Positions 52,497 through 64,000 of a stretch of 64,000 bases of DNA are shown here, piece by piece. The notes beneath the pieces are model-generated. The model had not been told where the DNA came from and searched no databases. It worked only from the letters and a program-made list of their open reading frames with translations. The DNA lies in assembly GCA_017936665.1 (NCBI GenBank), contig JAGBFB010000018.1, forward strand, positions 124,001-188,000. Direction: 5' to 3'. The stretch comes from Spirochaetaceae bacterium (GTDB taxonomy: Bacteria > Spirochaetota > Spirochaetia > Treponematales > Treponemataceae). The position numbers and the translations under genes were made by a program. Each line of letters begins with the position of its first letter. The stretch's first letter is position 1.

Positions 52497-55400
52497 TTAT
52501 ACTTCTTCTACTTTTAAAGTAACTGTTCCTTCTTGTGAACAAGTAACTGTAATTTTATATGTTGTATCAACAACAAAACCTGTCACTTTAATATCATTTC
52601 CTTGCACAGCATCAATTAAAACCGCATCACCTCCAATTATAGGCTGATTAGCTGGATCTGCGATACCATAAGAAGTACCATCCCATGAACCAGCAGAAGT
52701 TCTCAATTTGAAAGCACATGTTCCAGATTGACTTCCCCAACCATTCATATAATCTTGATAAGTAAAAGTTGTAGTATAAACACCATTATCTTCATAGATT
52801 AAATTAAGTGTAACAGTTTCATCATAAACATAAGTTCCTGCATCAGTTTCACTTGCTGTAACAGAAAAATCACCAATTATATCGCCATTTGCAAAAAGTA
52901 AAAGATTATCTTGCCATTTAGCATATACTGTACACTCTGAATCTACTGAAGATATAAAATCATCTCCATTTTCTGTAAGAGTCCAACCAACAAAAGTGTA
53001 ACCTTCTTTTTCTGGTTTTACTGCCAATAAATTACTAACATCTAATGTTACATTTGAAGAACTTCCGTTAAAAGTACCATCATTTAAATCAAATGTTACA
53101 GAATAAGTAGGCAATTCTTCTACAATAATTCGATAATCATGATAAATCCACAACTTAAATTCTCGATCAATAACAGTATTATTTGTTATTACAGATCTAC
53201 CATCTTTATTTGTTGAAATATCTAAAATTTCAGAACCTGTAACATAACGTAATTCTACAACATTTGACCAATCGTGATCAAAATTTTCTGCACCAATTTG
53301 AGCAAAAATTTCATAAGATTCACCAGCAGGAATAGTTATATCCTGTCCAGAACCTAGATAACCCATAAATTGATTCCAATAATCGTTTTCACCTTGTAAT
53401 GCAAATAACACATCGGGTTTTTCTTCTGATCCTACAATTTCAACTGTAAAGTTTGAAATTGTAATTGTTGATATAGCTGAACTACTAAAACCGATGTCCA
53501 TAAAATCATATTCAGTAGAATTATCAGTTCCTACATGGGGAACATATAAACTAAAATTTGTTGGTGTTGAAGAGATTTCCTGATGGTTCCAAGATTTTGA
53601 AAATTTTTCTTGAGATGCCCTTGCAACAAAATTTAAATTTGTAGTTTCTGTAGCACTTGCATCAAAAGTAATTTTATATAAATTACCTAATTCTGCCTTT
53701 TGCCCAGAAATTTTTATCCATTCAGATGTATCTCTAATTTCTACAGTAAATCCATTTTCTGTCCTATTTGAAATAACAGAATTGTTATATTCTGTAACAG
53801 GAAGAAGATTTGTATTAACTCCTTCAACTTTTAAATTACGAAGATAAACAACATCTGTAGTTCCAACATAAACTATAAATTGAGCAAGCCAATCGCCTTG
53901 CCAAGATCCTGCTTCAAATTCAATTGTTTGCCATTCTGTATTGATGGTCTTTTTTACTTGAACATGAGATTCAGTTCTAAGATAATCTGCTAATCTAAAA
54001 ATAACATCTTTTTCAGAATCAGATTTTACTTCAACAGAAACTTTGTAGTTTTGATTTGCAGACATTTCAAATTCTTCTGTTGCTGTAACATAATAATCCC
54101 ATTCAGAATTTGCTGTTTCAGCATTTGGATTTTCAATCATAACTTCTGTATCAAACTTTGTAACTGTAACTGATGAATCAGAAGAAATAAAATTTGTTTC
54201 GTCGATTACAGTAGTTGGCCAAAATTCATCTATTTTTGAAAAATCTACATCGTAGGCTCTATAGAAATAACAATTATTCAATCTAAACGAATTATCTAAA
54301 ATTTCAAATGACTCTGAATCGTCCAATGTAACGATATTTCCCGAAACAGTATAGGTTAAATCAGAAGTTTCAATTTCTCCATCTGCAACTTGAAACGCAG
54401 TTCCATTACTAGCCTGTACGAATAAAAGAGTCTCTGAATAAGTAACCCAAACACCTGCTAAAGAATCATTTTCTACATTTTCATCTACACGAGAAAAATT
54501 TGTATCTTCGTAGTTTATAGTTCCATCTTCATTTATTTCTAAATCATAAGTTACAGAACCGTCAGTAATAGTTGCTACATCACCTGAATATGAATATGGC
54601 ATAATACCATCAAGTTCACCAGCATAGAAAGTCATTGTATCATCTGAAAAAATCAGATACCAAATAGAAGAATCTTCAAAAGATGCATACCAAGTTCCTT
54701 TAAATTGATTTACATTAGAAACGTTTGGAATCCATTTTGCATATACAGTTAAATTATTTTCTGTAACTGTGTATGGGAAAGTCATTAGATTATTAAATTC
54801 AGAATCAGTGTACCAACCAGCAAAAGTATAATCTGTTCCTTCGTAAATTAGTGTAGGGAAAGTTTCGATTTGTGATCCAATATCTACATACATATACATT
54901 GAATCCCAATTTTCTAGTTTTCCACGTTCTGATTCAAAGTAAATCAAACTTTGCTTTTGGCCAAGATTTTTTCCAGAATAGGTTTTATTTGAATCAAATT
55001 CTTCAAGTTTTACATTAGAAAGCTGAATGTATTCAATCCCATCAGTTAATTCCATATCTTTTGTCCAGAAACAAAGACCAAACATATTATTTACTTCTGT
55101 TTCTGGTACATCAAAAATTATATAATAATCTCCACTTCCTGTTAAATCTGAATATGAGCCAATATCTTTTTCCGTAGTTCCGTTGCGTAAATTTATACAA
55201 CCAGTTAAATTTTTATCATCTGTAAAAGAGAATACATATTTTCCTGCTTGTTTAATTTCTTTTTCATATCCAAATTGAAGTTTCCAGTTATTAAAGGATT
55301 CTTCTCTTCTTTCGATAGATCGTTGAACTTTTATAGAATCTTCAGACATATCTTGTAATACAATCCAGTTAGCAGGATAGGTTCTACAGGAGGAATCACT

Positions 55401-56685
55401 CCAAATGCTCCATTGTGGGAAATCTGCTTTCTTTTCCCAAACACCATTTTTTTCAATCCACATAGGAGTGATATAACAATCTTTAATGTAGGTATCACCT
55501 TGATTTAATCTAAATTGAAATTCAATCTCTTCATTTAAATCTTCTGAAGTTAAATAAAATTGATATGTGTATTTTTTATATTCTGTAGTAAGATCAATTG
55601 TAGGAGATAATAACTCTAACTCATCATCATAATTTCTAATACAAAGTGTTTGAGTTCTTTCTGTATCAGCTTTTGCCCAGAAAGAAATAATGTATGCTGT
55701 AGAACTATTAAATCTACGAGAAAACATCATAGAATGTTTCCAGTTTGCATCTAGAGTAGAACCTACAGTTCCAACAGCCTCCGAACCTGAATTTTCAAGT
55801 TCTACATTTTCTGTTCCTGTTTGTTCTTTTTGGTAATCATAAACTTTCCAGTTTAGTGCAACAGTTGTAGGTTTTGTAACACCTTCAGATACTGTAATTT
55901 TTTCTTCTTCAACAACAGTTCCTTTTTCAGTAGCAACAACTTCTAGTTTTACATCGCTAGATTCAACATGAATTGTTGCAGTTTCGTTAGTTGTTTCATT
56001 TTTTACTTCTGCAATAATTTGATCTACAGAAGTATTTCCTTTTAAAGTGATTTTTTCTACGGATTTATCAATAAGAATTTCGCCAAAGTCGGCTGTAGAA
56101 TCTTCTGTGTTTTCAATTTCTGAATCAAGAGTACAGTTTGTAGAAATAACTGCACTTTCAACTTTTGCAGCTTTTCCATCATCTGCTTTTAAAACAATAC
56201 GAACATTTTCTTTTGCAACTTGAAGATTTTTTATAGTGGTTGCAGCAATATGAATTGAATTTGCACCACCGCCTCTAACATAAAGACTTTGAACTTCATA
56301 ACAATTTGAAATTTCAAAATCTCCATCTCTAATTTCTTCATCAGCTAAAACGCTTTCAACATTTCTTAAATTTTCAAAAACAACCCTGTCACTTTTTACA
56401 ACAAAGGTTGCATTTTTTAAATTACCATCACAAATTGTTATAGGTTTATCAATTGTGTAAGAATCAGAATCTTTAATTTCAAGATCTTCTTTTCCAAGAT
56501 TAATAACATCACCACTAGGAGCAGAATTAATTCTTTCTTTTAGTGTTTTAGATTGTCCCCCCCCCCGTGATAGGATTTTCATTGTTTGGAGGAGTTACAG
56601 GATTATCACCTGGTTTTTCTCCACAAGCTGCTAGTATAAATAACATACTCAACACAGCAATCACAGATAACAAGATTTTTTTCAT
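52497..56685 (-). CDS. Phase-variable large lipoprotein, out of frame at a G10 tract
   Basis: The true start is ATG 56685 with AGGGAGA upstream. It encodes a textbook lipoprotein signal (LFILAAC, C21) and a Pro/Asn linker, then runs into ten G residues (plus-strand C at 56557-56566). With 10 G the frame stops after 45 codons (TGGGTI-stop). With 9 or 12 G it continues into the 1361-codon frame to 52497, giving about 1395 residues. The internal ATG at 56582 has no ribosome binding site or signal peptide. Approximate domains of the full form: beta-helix-like 45-270, two sandwich modules 275-585, an InlB-type repeat 585-660, a lipocalin-like part 670-800, a block shared with the 49765 lipoprotein 830-1195, a second InlB-type repeat, and a C-terminal starch-binding-like domain. 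Likely a switchable surface glycan-binding protein; an assembly error in the tract is possible. Confidence 0.88.
56557..56566 (-). repeat. Homopolymeric G10 tract (phase-variation switch)
   Basis: Ten consecutive C on the plus strand, ten G on the coding strand, 40 codons after the start of the lipoprotein gene. I noticed no other G/C run of comparable length in this AT-rich window. Slipped-strand changes of one base would move the gene between on (9 or 12) and off (10, 11). Confidence 0.9.
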
Positions 56686-57267: not shown

Positions 57268-58569
57268 TTAATACATAAATTCTAAGAAATCAGGAATTCT
57301 TTTTGACCAAGCTTGTTCATTATGAGAATGACCTACACTTTCTTGATAGAATAAATCGCCCTCATCTGATGGTTTTTCAGCTTGTTTATATCCTTTACTT
57401 AAAATGTATTCTTTCAAATATTGTGTTCCAGGAAGCAAAATCATTTCTAATGCGTCCCCTGTTCCACAGTCAATGTAGAATTTAACTTTTTTATCGCTGG
57501 AAAAATTAAATCCGTCTTCTTTAATAATTTGTTCAAATCCAGTACTTCCGCCAGAAAATAAACCTGCACCACTAAATACATCTGGATTTTGGCTAGCAAT
57601 ATAAGCAGAACAGAAAGCTCCATAACTACTTCCTGCTATTACACGACCACTTCTGTCTGAAATTGTATTATAATTTTTTTCGATTAAAGGAATAATTTCT
57701 TCTACAATCATCAAACGATGTTCATTTGCATATCGTTTAAATTCAGCTGAATCTGTAACTGGCTCATCAGGAAGTTCATCGCACCAACCAGCATATTCTT
57801 TTGTTCGATTACGATTATTTGAAATTCCAACAATGATTGCACTTTGAATTTTACCTTCTTGAACAAGGCGTTCCATTGAAGTTTCAACTTTCCAACCTCT
57901 CCATGGCAAACTTTTTTCGTCCCAAACATTTTGACCATCTAACATATACAAAACTGGAAATTTCTTTTCATTATCGATATTGTTCAAATATTCAGCTGGA
58001 AGATAAACATAAATATCTCTTGCTCCCATCCATTCATATTTGCTTTCAAATCTAAAAATTTCTAAGCCTCCAACTTTATCAGAAAGACGAGCTAAACTTG
58101 ATTTTTTTCTATCACAATGTTTTAAAGGATTTGCAGGATCGTTTTCTTGGTATCCATCGTTTTCTTTTATCATATAAGTTAAAAATGCCTTGTCTGTTTT
58201 TAGTTTTACAGTTTTATAAAAAATAGGAGTTTTCTTAATATTCTTTAATTCTGTTCCAGAAAGTTCAGGATGATTATCACAAGAAATTGTAATTACAGAA
58301 GGATTTTTTGCATCAAAGTCTTTATCAAAATACAAAAAAGTTATTTCATAATTTCCTTCCCCTTTATCAACAATGACAGGACTTCCGTTTTCTTTAACAA
58401 ATTTATCAAATATAGATTTTTGTACATTTAATAAATCTTCACCTTGATTTTCTTTACCAGCTGCTTTTAATTCTGCCGTAAAATTTTTTAGTAATTTTCC
58501 TTGTGCAAAAACATTTGTTACCAAACACAATGCTAATAACAAAAAAAAGATTTTTCTAAAATTCTTCAT
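57268..58569 (-). CDS. Secreted alpha/beta-hydrolase esterase (Esterase D/Fes-like)
   Basis: 433 residues with a signal peptide (FFLLLALCLVTNVFA, cleavage before QGK). Residues about 25-170 form a beta-rich N-terminal domain of the kind that precedes enterochelin or carbohydrate esterases. The catalytic domain follows: YVYLPAEYL, FPVLYMLDGQNVWD, the nucleophile elbow GSSYG (S315), a candidate acid in FYIDCGTGDALE, and a candidate His in VGHSHNEQAW. Relatives cleave feruloyl or acetyl groups from plant polysaccharide, or siderophore esters; the substrate is not decided by sequence. GGAGG sits 5 nt before the ATG. It probably acts outside the inner membrane, in keeping with the neighbouring surface glycan-binding lipoproteins. 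Confidence 0.9.
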   Translation of the reverse strand: MKNFRKIFFLLLALCLVTNVFAQGKLLKNFTAELKAAGKENQGEDLLNVQKSIFDKFVKENGSPVIVDKGEGNYEITFLYFDKDFDAKNPSVITISCDNHPELSGTELKNIKKTPIFYKTVKLKTDKAFLTYMIKENDGYQENDPANPLKHCDRKKSSLARLSDKVGGLEIFRFESKYEWMGARDIYVYLPAEYLNNIDNEKKFPVLYMLDGQNVWDEKSLPWRGWKVETSMERLVQEGKIQSAIIVGISNNRNRTKEYAGWCDELPDEPVTDSAEFKRYANEHRLMIVEEIIPLIEKNYNTISDRSGRVIAGSSYGAFCSAYIASQNPDVFSGAGLFSGGSTGFEQIIKEDGFNFSSDKKVKFYIDCGTGDALEMILLPGTQYLKEYILSKGYKQAEKPSDEGDLFYQESVGHSHNEQAWSKRIPDFLEFMY

Positions 58570-59989: not shown

Positions 59990-62449
59990 TTATTTTAACA
60001 TAAGAAGTTGTTTAAGTTCTGCATTTGTGTCAGAAAATTTTTCATAAAATCTTGTTGATAAATCAATTCTACCAATGATAATATTTGTTCCTCTAACCAT
60101 ACAAGGATACAAATCATTACCTACAATTGAGTACGAAGTAATTTCATAATTTTCAGAATTTGGAACATCCCACATCATATCTTCAATTTCAGATAATTCT
60201 GGATCAAACTTTAAGATTGTATGACAACCTGTTTCTTCCCCTATTGAGTTAATAATTGAGTTTCTAAAATAAAAAACATTATCATAAACCGTAATTGAAG
60301 ATATTTTTAATGTTTCATCGTAGTCTAGAATAACATATTCACAAACACCTACACCGTCGCTATCTGTAAGTTGAACAATTTTATTGCTTGATTCGTCAAC
60401 AGCGTACAATGCATTATTTGCAAAATTTAACTTTCGTAGATAGTCCCAATTAATACCTGTATTATTGTCACCAACTACAATAGCTGATTTGTCTGTTTCA
60501 GGAATAAAACAAGTTTTTGATAAGAATTCAGAATAGTAGTAACCATCATCAATTGCTTCACGTAATCTACTCATTCTTTTTGGATCAGCATCTAAAAATT
60601 TAATAGCTTCTTCATTTCTCAAATCAGTATATAAAACTGAATAATTATTATCATCTTTAAAACATTCTAATGAAAAATCAATTGTGTTTCTTCCACAGGC
60701 TTCTGCAAATTTTGCTAAAACCTTTGTTGCATCAACATTTCCTGTATCATCAAAAAATTCATCCTTCCAGATATAATCATAATTACTACTTGATTGAAGA
60801 AATTCTACAGAAAAGTAATAAACATAGGAGTCAAAACCACCAGCCATTTCCCAATTAAACAAATTTGGATCAATTTTTATATCAGAATCTTTACGATAAA
60901 AAATATCTGCAAAAAAGTTATTATCGTATGCATTGTAGATATTTTGTTTTTGATATCTATCAGAATTTATTGCATTAGCTAAAAGTTGTAATAAATCTTT
61001 TTCGATAATAACTTCAAATAATTCTTCATCTGCTAGTTGATTACCATATTTATCCCTTGTTTCTGTTGCAAGTTTTTCAAAACCCTCTATGTTTGCAAAT
61101 TCATCAAAACGAATTTCATATTCATCTCGATAATTAAAAAATTTAAAATTTCCGTTTGTATAATCTCCTTTAGTTTTCAAATAGTCTAATAATTCTGCAA
61201 ACAGATAATTTACAATAGCTTCATAATCAATTTTTGAAGTTACAGAATCTATAAAATAATAATATTTAGAAGACCAGTCAGTTGCATCAAAATCATAAGC
61301 AGATCCTCTTCCTGCTAAAGAATATTTATAATACCAACTACCAGAATTATTATCGTAAGAATATCGCAAAATATCCTCTGCTTCAAAATAATCAGTTGAA
61401 GAAGAATCATTACTAGTGTTACCTCCAACTAACTCTCTATTTTCGCTATTATATCCACCTTTTCTGTATGGAATTCTATAGAGTTTACTATCTAAAATGA
61501 AATAAACTTCTCTTGTTTCTTCATTGTAAATCCATTGAGATACAGAAACTCCTCCATTTGATTGATACCATAAATTTGAAGGATTATCTGGATCAGAAAC
61601 AGGAATTGCTCTTAAAAAGTTTGCAGAAACATCTCCAGATCTATACCCCTTTACAAAAAGCCAATCTCCACTATTACTAACATAAAATTCTTCATAAGTT
61701 GTATCAGAAACTGCTGCTACCAATTTTTCTGATGTTTTAGTTCTTGGATTAAATTTATAAATTACATCAGTCCATGAACTACCTGTATTTTCATTGGCGA
61801 TATAATAAACATTCCCCCTATTATCAAAATTCATTTGATAAATATATTCATTATTTTCCCATTTTGCTTTTATGGAAGAATCTTTATCTGTTGTTAAAAT
61901 ATCGTGATAAGTTCCATCTTCAAAAACACAGAGAAATTTACCTAGTCTATATTCTTTAGAACTTTGCCAATAACCATCTTTATCATAACTTTCCTCATAC
62001 CAATACGAATTATTACTAAAAATTATATAAATTTCATTTGAGCCTTCAACAGGAGATTTAGTTACATAAGAAACATCAGACAAATTACAATTTGCTGGAA
62101 CATTCATAAATTTTTCTATAGAACCATCTTCCTTAATTTTTAATAATTTTTCATCGCCACCAGAACGTGGATAAATTCCATTACGAGATTCGTAAGCATT
62201 TTCTGAAACAGCAAGTCCTGCTATTGAACTCATATTAAAAGAAAATCCAGATACTTTACTAGGATTAGTATCCTGATTTTCGTCCTTATCAGGTTCTTTG
62301 TTAGAATCCTGATTATCGCCTTGGTTAATACCTGGTTCATTTTCAATAGGTGTAGAACTTCCATCATCACAAGATGTTAAACACATTCCTAGTACAAAAA
62401 CAACCAAGAACGAAAACATCACTGTTTTCAAAAAAGTTTTAATCTTCAT
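59990..62449 (-). CDS. Large lipoprotein, probable beta-propeller, unknown function
   Basis: ATG 62449 is chosen because GGAGG lies 5 nt before it; the longer frame to TTG 62479 would run into an operator repeat. 819 residues. Signal with lipobox LTSC (C27) followed by a long acidic Asn/Asp/Glu linker (about 28-60). Residues 65-330 and 650-819 have repeated Gly/Asp-rich strands with YYIANE, YFILDSKLYRIPY and LYAVDESSNKIVQL, suggesting propeller blades that flank a helical Tyr/Asp-rich insertion (about 370-640). No enzyme motif was seen. It is divergent from an HTH regulator across two identical operator dyads, so it is probably that regulator's target. Confidence 0.85.
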   Translation of the reverse strand: MKIKTFLKTVMFSFLVVFVLGMCLTSCDDGSSTPIENEPGINQGDNQDSNKEPDKDENQDTNPSKVSGFSFNMSSIAGLAVSENAYESRNGIYPRSGGDEKLLKIKEDGSIEKFMNVPANCNLSDVSYVTKSPVEGSNEIYIIFSNNSYWYEESYDKDGYWQSSKEYRLGKFLCVFEDGTYHDILTTDKDSSIKAKWENNEYIYQMNFDNRGNVYYIANENTGSSWTDVIYKFNPRTKTSEKLVAAVSDTTYEEFYVSNSGDWLFVKGYRSGDVSANFLRAIPVSDPDNPSNLWYQSNGGVSVSQWIYNEETREVYFILDSKLYRIPYRKGGYNSENRELVGGNTSNDSSSTDYFEAEDILRYSYDNNSGSWYYKYSLAGRGSAYDFDATDWSSKYYYFIDSVTSKIDYEAIVNYLFAELLDYLKTKGDYTNGNFKFFNYRDEYEIRFDEFANIEGFEKLATETRDKYGNQLADEELFEVIIEKDLLQLLANAINSDRYQKQNIYNAYDNNFFADIFYRKDSDIKIDPNLFNWEMAGGFDSYVYYFSVEFLQSSSNYDYIWKDEFFDDTGNVDATKVLAKFAEACGRNTIDFSLECFKDDNNYSVLYTDLRNEEAIKFLDADPKRMSRLREAIDDGYYYSEFLSKTCFIPETDKSAIVVGDNNTGINWDYLRKLNFANNALYAVDESSNKIVQLTDSDGVGVCEYVILDYDETLKISSITVYDNVFYFRNSIINSIGEETGCHTILKFDPELSEIEDMMWDVPNSENYEITSYSIVGNDLYPCMVRGTNIIIGRIDLSTRFYEKFSDTNAELKQLLMLK

Positions 62450-62474
62450 AAAAACCTCCATTAATACATAAAAT

Positions 62475-62503
62475 TGCAAGTAATTATTTATATTATACTT
62501 GCA
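62475..62503. promoter_or_regulatory. Operator dyad 1 (TGCAAGT-N15-ACTTGCA)
   Basis: TGCAAGT at 62475-62481 and its complement ACTTGCA at 62497-62503, 15 nt apart. It lies 26 nt upstream of the lipoprotein start, where it could cover the minus-strand promoter. Confidence 0.65.
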
Positions 62504-62538
62504 GATACATTACATTTTATCATCATTTGTCTTATTTA

Positions 62539-62567
62539 TGCAAGTAAAATTTTATTAATAACTTGCA
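62539..62567. promoter_or_regulatory. Operator dyad 2 (TGCAAGT-N15-ACTTGCA)
   Basis: An identical arrangement, 62539-62545 and 62561-62567, again with 15 nt between half-sites and 64 bp from dyad 1. It ends 13 nt before the HTH start codon, which suggests autoregulation. Confidence 0.65.
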
Positions 62568-62580
62568 TAAACTTATATTT

Positions 62581-62898
62581 ATGACAGAAGAAGAATTACA
62601 AAGTCGTGTTATTACTAACATAAAAAGCCTTCGTAAAGAAAGAGGTCTTTCTCAAGAAAAACTTGCGGACAAAGCAGATATTTCTCGTCAAATGATGAAT
62701 GATATTGAAGGTAAGAGAAGATGGTTAACAAAATCTACATTAGTTAAGATATGTAATGCATTGGAAGTTGATGCATATCAATTATTTATTCCCGTTGTAA
62801 GCGAAAGCTCAAACGTAGAAAGTATTTATGAACTTATTTCAAAAGAAGTTGTTTCAAAAGTAAAAACAGCAATTGATGAAGCATTAAAAACTTTTTGA
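62581..62898 (+). CDS. XRE-family HTH regulator
   Basis: 105 residues from ATG 62581; the in-frame TTG at 62563 lies inside operator dyad 2 and is unlikely. N-terminal helix-turn-helix (VITNIKSLRKERGLSQEKLA, DISRQMMNDIEGKRRW, LVKICNALEVDAYQLF, about 9-70), then a short helical tail (ESIYELISKEVVSKVKTAID) that may dimerise. It probably binds the two TGCAAGT dyads and controls itself and the divergent lipoprotein gene. No ribosome binding site is visible. A terminator repeat follows 18 nt after the stop. Confidence 0.88.
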   Translation: MTEEELQSRVITNIKSLRKERGLSQEKLADKADISRQMMNDIEGKRRWLTKSTLVKICNALEVDAYQLFIPVVSESSNVESIYELISKEVVSKVKTAIDEALKTF

Positions 62899-62915: not shown

Positions 62916-62969
62916 AAAAAAACAAGCCCCACCAGAATAATTCTAGCGGGGCTAAATTTTTTAAGCAAG
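62916..62969. terminator. Bidirectional terminator, copy 2 of the 52-bp repeat
   Basis: Stem AGCCCC (62925-62930) with GGGGCT (62948-62953) and the inner AGAAT/ATTCT. Apart from small length differences in the A and T runs it is identical to copy 1. It terminates the HTH gene (plus) and nifJ (minus). Confidence 0.85.
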
Positions 62970-63000: not shown

Positions 63001-64000
63001 TTATTTGTACAATTCCACAAGTTTTTGTAAGTGTTCAAATCTTGCTTTTGCAGCATCCTCGTTTTTCTTGAACAAAAGCTCAGCTCTTTCTGGGAATTTT
63101 CTAGTAAGAGATGAATATCGTGTTTCATTTGCAAGGAATTGTTGATATGTTCCATCACCTGCTTTTGATGTCAATGTGAATGGATTTTTTCCTTCTGCTT
63201 TTAGAGCTGGGTTGAAACTGAACAAGTTCCAGTAACCTGCTTTTACAGCAGCTTTCATTTCGTCTTGACAGTGGTTCATTCCACCTTTAACACCGTGTAA
63301 TTCACATGGTGCGTATCCAATAATCAATGAAGGTCCGTTGTATGCTTCTGCTTCTTGGATTGCTTTTAATGCTTGTGCAGGGTTTGCACCAAGTGCGATT
63401 TGTGCTACATAAACATATCCGTAACTCATTGCAATTTCTGCAAGTGATTTTTTACCGATATCTTTACCAGCAGCAGCAAATTGACAAACTTCACCAATGT
63501 TAGATGCTTTTGATGCTTGTCCACCAGTATTTGAGTACATTTCTGTATCGAATACCATAACATTTACATTTTCGCCACTTGCAAGAACGTGGTCTAATCC
63601 ACCAAAACCGATGTCATAAGCCCATCCGTCACCACCCATAATCCATACAGATTTTTTGTTAAGGTAAGCTTTCTTTTCTAGGATTTCGTCTTTGCAAGAA
63701 CAATCTAATTTTTCTAATTCAGCAATAAGAACTTTTGTAGGTTCTGCATTGTCGATTGTAGAATCTTTTGTTTCAATAAATTTAGCGATAGCATCTTTTA
63801 GAGAAGCTGAAGCTTTATCGCTTGTTGCAATTTCTTCAAGTTTTGCAATTAAGCTATCACGGATAAATTTCTGTCCGATGTACATACCAAGACCGTGTTC
63901 AGCATTGTCTTCAAACAATGAGTTTGCCCATGCTGGACCTTTCTTAGAATCTTTGTTAATTGTGTATGGACATGTTGCAGCTGGTCCACCCCAGATTGAT
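63001..64000 (-). CDS. nifJ: Pyruvate:ferredoxin (flavodoxin) oxidoreductase, C-terminal part
   Basis: The frame is open to the right edge (IWGGPAATCPYTINKD begins it), so the N-terminal two thirds of this roughly 1190-residue enzyme lie outside. It oxidises pyruvate with CoA to acetyl-CoA and CO2 and reduces ferredoxin, the central step of fermentative metabolism. The thiamine-diphosphate domain is clear: WIMGGDGWAYDIGFGGLDHV, then VFDTEMYSNTGGQASKAS. CxxxxGxxGGMNHC-like cysteines (APCELHGVKGGMNHC) near the end are also typical. The apparent internal start at 63918 is not real. A terminator lies about 48 nt downstream. Confidence 0.96.
   Translation of the reverse strand, partial: SIWGGPAATCPYTINKDSKKGPAWANSLFEDNAEHGLGMYIGQKFIRDSLIAKLEEIATSDKASASLKDAIAKFIETKDSTIDNAEPTKVLIAELEKLDCSCKDEILEKKAYLNKKSVWIMGGDGWAYDIGFGGLDHVLASGENVNVMVFDTEMYSNTGGQASKASNIGEVCQFAAAGKDIGKKSLAEIAMSYGYVYVAQIALGANPAQALKAIQEAEAYNGPSLIIGYAPCELHGVKGGMNHCQDEMKAAVKAGYWNLFSFNPALKAEGKNPFTLTSKAGDGTYQQFLANETRYSSLTRKFPERAELLFKKNEDAAKARFEHLQKLVELYK

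Follow-up and report, generated by a model that had tools for sequence, protein, structure and literature searches.

The window analysed here, a 64,000-nucleotide stretch of a Spirochaetaceae genome, raises the question of what is controlled, and by which protein, from a short intergenic region in which one inverted repeat stands twice between a small XRE-family regulator gene and a divergent gene for a predicted lipoprotein. The original prediction was that TGCAAGT-N15-ACTTGCA occurs twice with equal spacing, flanked by divergent genes for a 105-residue XRE regulator and an 819-residue lipoprotein. An exact search and the open reading frames agree with this description of both the repeats and the genes, and the features of the region are as follows.

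59990-62449, minus strand: predicted lipoprotein gene, 819 aa from ATG (open reading frame, GGAGG ribosome-binding site, MKIKTF...LTSC signal).
62475-62503, no strand: distal (lipoprotein-side) candidate operator dyad, TGCAAGT-N15-ACTTGCA (exact search).
62510-62521, no strand: conserved block between the dyads, TTACATTTTATC here and GTTTACATATTAT in relatives (alignment of 19 promoters).
62539-62567, no strand: proximal (XRE-side) candidate operator dyad, TGCAAGT-N15-ACTTGCA (exact search).
62581-62898, plus strand: XRE (HTH_3) regulator gene, 105 aa (open reading frame and Pfam HTH_3).
62925-62953, minus strand: terminator-like hairpin (one found versus 0.2 expected from shuffles).

The starts of the two dyads lie 64 bp apart; the distal dyad begins 25 bp from the lipoprotein ATG, and the right arm of the proximal dyad, which extends to 11-base arms, stops 13 bp short of the XRE ATG. 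The dyads had been called identical, which is true of their seven-base arms but not of the two 15-base A/T-rich spacers, which differ. The 64-kb window holds no further exact copy beyond these two, and two matches were found in none of 100 dinucleotide shuffles of the window (shuffle mean 0.00). The genome search that had been proposed as a check revealed exact matches at these two places only, with none scattered elsewhere in the 2,584,639 bases and 43 contigs of the genome. Allowing up to two mismatches added 19 places. Of these, 13 are probably coding, as they fall within frames that stay open beyond 200 codons; the frames around the other six are shorter, at 52-147 codons, and one of the six is close to a further XRE paralogue. 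A regulon elsewhere in the genome defined by exact dyads is thereby ruled out. A relaxed pattern, TGCNAGT-N15-MCTTGCR, run on 269 genomes of the family with a reversed-pattern control, matched in 39; because, beyond the subfamily genomes, many matches have a higher G/C content and look coding by eye, and because the reversed control also matched, this pattern is too noisy for defining a regulon. As a separate observation, the same genome carries a perfect dyad, TGCTAGTAC-N11-GTACTAGCA, upstream of a 194-aa XRE gene (L037:2579-2607; G000:C18:120078-120106), with an XRE paralogue of the regulator studied here also nearby.

The facing gene encodes a predicted lipoprotein, with an N-terminal signal and lipobox cysteine, MKIKTFLKTVMFSFLVVFVLGMCLTSC, recognised by a rule-based check; its product had no match in Pfam (E up to 10), NCBIfam, PADLOC or PHROGs. 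Six proteins encoded between 52497 and 63999 were tested and contained no restriction-modification domain, and phage genes were likewise not recognised among six neighbouring proteins tested. Farther along on the lipoprotein side, positions 52497-56582 encode a 1361-aa protein with Listeria-Bacteroides repeats and a CBM58-like stretch, adjoined by a putative esterase gene (57268-58569).

The regulator itself matches Pfam PF01381 (HTH_3) above the curated cut-off (47.4 bits, cut-off 23). No Shine-Dalgarno sequence is evident before its gene, and the terminator-like hairpin, between the XRE gene and a convergent gene at 63001, closes the XRE side of the unit. An AlphaFold2 model built from 27 sequences (mean pLDDT 89.5, pTM 0.66) predicts an HTH domain of five short helices at residues 3-69, a flexible, low-confidence linker at residues 70-76 and a single 28-residue C-terminal helix at residues 77-104. 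Solved structures related to it over the HTH part are C.BclI, NHTF, SinR and C.Esp1396I, with C.BclI ranked first by Foldseek (E 1.4e-4 over 71 columns, the C-terminal helix lying outside the match). PHROGs repressor models also match the regulator; readings of the unit as a phage-conversion or defence element were rejected, as only generic HTH and control-protein models match. When a five-sequence alignment was used as query against 274 genomes of the family, the XRE subfamily was found at no fewer than 22 places, at 143-183 bits, in at least 21 of the genomes, the next match scoring 109 bits. Its distribution is patchy, for the subfamily spans five genera and yet neither of the two other searched genomes of the window's own genus has a member among the matches listed; among named assemblies, those closest by regulator belong to Treponema and Spirochaetaceae of the rumen and gut.

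The conservation of the dyads across this subfamily is revealing of their function. The proximal dyad is present in all 22 members found, at -41 or -42 from the XRE ATG, with a spacer of 15 bases in 21 loci and 14 in one, and its invariant positions are CTTGC in the right arm and C3, A5 and T7 in the left. A consensus-free scan of 2,695 position-spacer combinations over 19 loci, from which the near-identical copies L048, L051 and L058 were omitted, ranked position -42 with spacer 15 first and four combinations on the same axis next; total arm complementarity was 97 of 133, a value reached by none of 5,000 shuffles (largest 61). The second dyad is more variable. Its best candidate lies at a step of 64-65 bp in 15 of the 22 loci. 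Weak or one-sided distal arms are found in five of these 15 (L052, L056, L057, and L055 with its near copy L058), and a 14-base distal spacer in three (L044, L047, L048). Over 13 loci with a facing gene, step 64 has a mean consensus score of 9.69, against 2.2-7.2 for the other 50 steps from 40 to 90. The best candidate falls off this step in the remaining seven members, including the lipoprotein-facing L004; distal arms are weak or shifted in L046, L055 and L057, and in L005 two complete dyads stand 32 bp apart. Half or all of the distal dyad is missing from L052, L053, L061 and L062, four loci where no facing gene is convincing, although each of them retains the proximal dyad; open reading frames in L061 and L062 had been called divergent by script and were judged poor by eye. 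Thus, the notion of twinned operators in a shared promoter is strengthened by the fixed distance of the proximal dyad in every member and by the prominence of step 64. The dyads are very probably operators, and most likely operators of the XRE protein itself.

The conserved block at 62510-62521 may serve as a -35-like element for the XRE gene on the plus strand and, overlapping it, as a -10-like element for the lipoprotein gene on the minus strand; a consensus promoter scan of the intergenic region returned no strong promoter and left these elements unconfirmed. The proximal dyad would then lie between the XRE promoter and the XRE start codon, and the distal dyad between the promoter and the start codon of the facing gene. 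With this placement, both transcripts would be stopped by bound protein, at initiation or early in elongation. We infer that the regulator binds both dyads and represses rather than activates: it is probably a local autorepressor that also represses the facing gene. The protein would most likely act as a dimer joined through the long C-terminal helix of the model, its two HTH heads resting on half-sites 22 bp apart from centre to centre, about two helical turns. For a protein of this fold such a separation is large, a point against the explanation that we favor. The fixed step of 64 bp, about six turns, would place both dimers on one face of the DNA and so allow them to cooperate. The expected outcome is low, self-limited expression of regulator and facing lipoprotein, with release when the regulator is absent, for instance upon arrival in a new cell, or is inactivated. 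Control had been described as mutually coupled, a wording that goes too far, as there is no sign of feedback from the lipoprotein to the regulator.

Alternatively, the XRE protein could be an activator, or could resemble the controller (C) proteins in activating and repressing at different sites, so that the lipoprotein comes on after a delay. The best fold and sequence matches do include the controller proteins C.BclI and C.Esp1396I, and, according to PMC6237814, C proteins are capable of activation from one dimer site and of action at divergent promoters; the absence of a strong sigma-70 promoter would also be expected if help were needed. However, the position of the dyads, downstream of the inferred promoter elements and near the start codons, makes repression or a roadblock easier to understand, and the two are alike rather than one strong and one weak, so that we regard activation as unlikely.

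It is also conceivable, and rather improbable, that the promoter is conserved by recent common descent only and that the distal dyad has no operator function. Some promoter pairs are indeed very similar, and the distal arms are weak in several members: the 144 bp upstream of the XRE ATG are identical at all 144 positions between L050 and L051, which come from two species, and L055 and L058 are 97.8% identical over 272 bp. The 19-locus counts, however, exclude the near-identical copies, and promoters only about 76-77% alike, XRE start included (L003 with L060 and with L004), keep the proximal arms while the rest changes; L003 and L060 retain both dyads and the step between them, which stands out among the 51 steps scored.

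The arms also vary in a manner that bears on whether DNA or RNA is recognised. At arm position 4 the left arm has A in 13 loci, T in eight and G in one, while its right-arm partner is T in all 22, so that pairing is possible in 14 of 22 loci, as it likewise is at position 7. Because these changes go unpaired, the arms are better read as a tolerant DNA half-site, GCWAGT, than as a selected RNA stem. That the dyads serve another regulator, or form RNA hairpins in two leaders with the XRE gene merely adjacent, is very improbable: although the XRE-side dyad could form an 11-bp RNA stem, the dyads accompany the XRE gene in 22 loci despite changes of the facing gene, exact copies occur nowhere else in the genome, and the arm changes break base pairs with no compensation, which disfavors the hairpin.

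Related XRE groups with other recognition helices have different repeats in their own promoters when these are inspected by eye, including a CAACA-N15-TGTTG repeat beside the helix EETVKNIE and GTAAGT-type sites beside QAINFFEG. The operator geometry of these groups was read by eye because the top scores of the consensus-free scan are weak there (z 3.1-4.4). A sister XRE group (QNINDIEGKRRW; loci L032, L064, L069-L071, L174, L176, L177, L184, L187, L189, L191 and L192) shows strong conservation of the promoter before the XRE start; this promoter contains several GCWAGT sites, and its last bases, immediately adjoining the start codon, read ACTTGCAAAATGCAAGT or a similar sequence.

The divergent arrangement with a lipoprotein is a separate matter from the dyads. 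An opposite-strand gene was called within 400 bp in 19 of the 21 subfamily loci that have upstream flank, and in 11 of those 19 a lipobox protein faces the XRE gene. By a crude rule-based caller, 26 of 350 open reading frames in 464 kb of the window's genome encode lipobox proteins, and eight of 34 divergent pairs there include one; the subfamily proportion greatly exceeds the per-gene rate (binomial p 1.6e-8, loci treated as independent). Among HTH_3 control genes from the same genomes, for which 24 of 30 loci were evaluable, six unplaceable ones being dropped and two of the 24 (L231, L239) belonging to the wider clade, five of 14 divergent neighbours are lipoproteins. The wider XRE clade, with 48 of 49 loci placed, faces lipoproteins in 15 of 43 cases (two of which, L182 and L204, resemble ordinary signal peptides) and signal-peptide proteins in eight more. 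A special link of the XRE subfamily to lipoproteins is not established by 11 of 19 against five of 14 in the control. Because other XRE genes also face lipoproteins, the pairing alone is not evidence for an operator. The divergent pairing of XRE and lipoprotein genes is more widespread in these bacteria, and what is specific to this unit is the matched twin-operator architecture.

The facing genes themselves are diverse. Besides the 11 lipobox proteins they comprise a small protein with CEYCGQ motifs in three of the 19 loci, a protein whose N-terminus resembles a cytosine methyltransferase by eye in one (L059), and a membrane or secreted protein and a 100-aa protein in one each; two of the 19 calls are doubtful. 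Blastp among the eleven lipoproteins linked only L047 with L048, L050 with L058 and L050 with L051, and so few links leave at least eight lipoprotein clusters with no detected similarity, several of the proteins being cut off by locus ends. The original reading as a new switch for this lipoprotein is therefore too narrow: the conserved unit is the regulator with its two sites, and the facing gene varies. The control unit would thus consist of the regulator and both operators, with a replaceable gene on the other side.

Traces of exchange are found where conservation of the promoters ends. Behind the identical promoters of L050 and L051 the lipoproteins differ, matching weakly in LRR-type repeats only, and the similarity of L055 and L058 reaches the first codons of the lipoprotein and is lost afterwards. 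The promoters of L004 and L049, and those of L044, L046 and L047, remain 80-90% alike to a little beyond the distal dyad, at about -121 to -126; past that point the facing genes differ, with the exception of L044 and L046, where both are of the CEYCGQ type. In L072 (CADCLG010000002.1) the XRE-adjacent lipoprotein is backed by a second lipoprotein, the one that faces the XRE gene in L073 (JAILQA010000261.1). This second gene has its own promoter copy, in which both dyads are present and the distal spacer measures 16 bases, and behind the gene lies a broken XRE remnant; the simplest reading of the sequence is insertion of a new XRE-lipoprotein unit together with decay of the older regulator, whose operators persisted.

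Lipoproteins may also change regulators. In another genus (G015, L034:938-3684), a homologue of the window lipoprotein is 755 aa long and 27% identical to it over 791 columns. The gene opposite this homologue is another HTH gene (110 aa; Phage_CI_repr, HTH_3), and the promoter between the two carries another dyad, ATCTTGATG-N16-CATCAAGAT; the same lipoprotein family thus appears to stand under a different regulator there. For a second homologue (G035), the stretch read holds no HTH gene. In the window's genome, three other XRE paralogues were found at E up to 1e-10; the genes opposite them encode a lipoprotein in two cases and a membrane protein in the third. Over about 2.1 kb, one of these units matches a unit of another genus at about 95.5-95.8% identity, which suggests recent transfer. 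A paralogous XRE-lipoprotein unit of the window's genome (L042:5190-5590, G000:C27) has a one-base length difference near the lipoprotein start that puts the start codon out of frame, and an intact copy in another genus (L175) is 95.5% identical to it; the frame difference reflects phase variation or an assembly error.

We tentatively propose that the conserved control unit acts as a mobile socket, beside which lipoprotein genes, and sometimes others, are exchanged by recombination near the distal operator, a possibility that we hold with some doubt.

Among known systems, the closest in several respects are the C proteins of restriction-modification systems (C.BclI, C.AhdI, C.Esp1396I, C.Kpn2I), which like the XRE protein are small HTH_3 proteins, are among its best matches and exert local control from a divergent promoter. 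A roadblock by C.Kpn2I and a C-box with two dimer sites in one element are described in PMC6237814. The XRE unit differs in having, instead of one such C-box, two dyads 64 bp apart with half-sites about 22 bp apart, in the long C-terminal helix that falls outside the structure matches, and in facing a predicted lipoprotein where C-protein genes are linked to restriction-modification systems. In the wider clade, XRE genes L191, L195, L199 and L205 face DNA-methyltransferase-like N-termini by eye, a hint at a link to restriction-modification control. The CylR2-type and NHTF-type proteins are small HTH repressors, and they share the fold and size of the HTH domain with the XRE regulator, although CylR2 (66 aa) matches it over the HTH part only. 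Phage CI/Cro switches share the XRE fold and a divergent multi-operator region; their facing gene, however, encodes a second repressor and not a lipoprotein.

One XRE gene appears in T. pallidum expression data in PMC8525777. No description of the present unit of XRE gene and twin operators was found in open PubMed Central text, a scope that subscription papers and preprints mostly lie outside. To our knowledge, the control of the many lipoproteins of treponemes is largely open. If the repression mechanism is right, an XRE gene divergent from a lipoprotein gene and flanked by matching dyads would predict regulator, operator and target from sequence.

The most interesting aspect of the unit is a conserved control element with a replaceable partner. 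If the socket is real, a new facing gene would be tightly repressed immediately, and a replaced gene could persist with its own operators, reachable by the regulator in trans. Exchange of lipoproteins beside a fixed regulator would then explain how envelope genes are taken up without uncontrolled expression, and would offer gut treponemes a general route for acquiring and silencing new envelope proteins.
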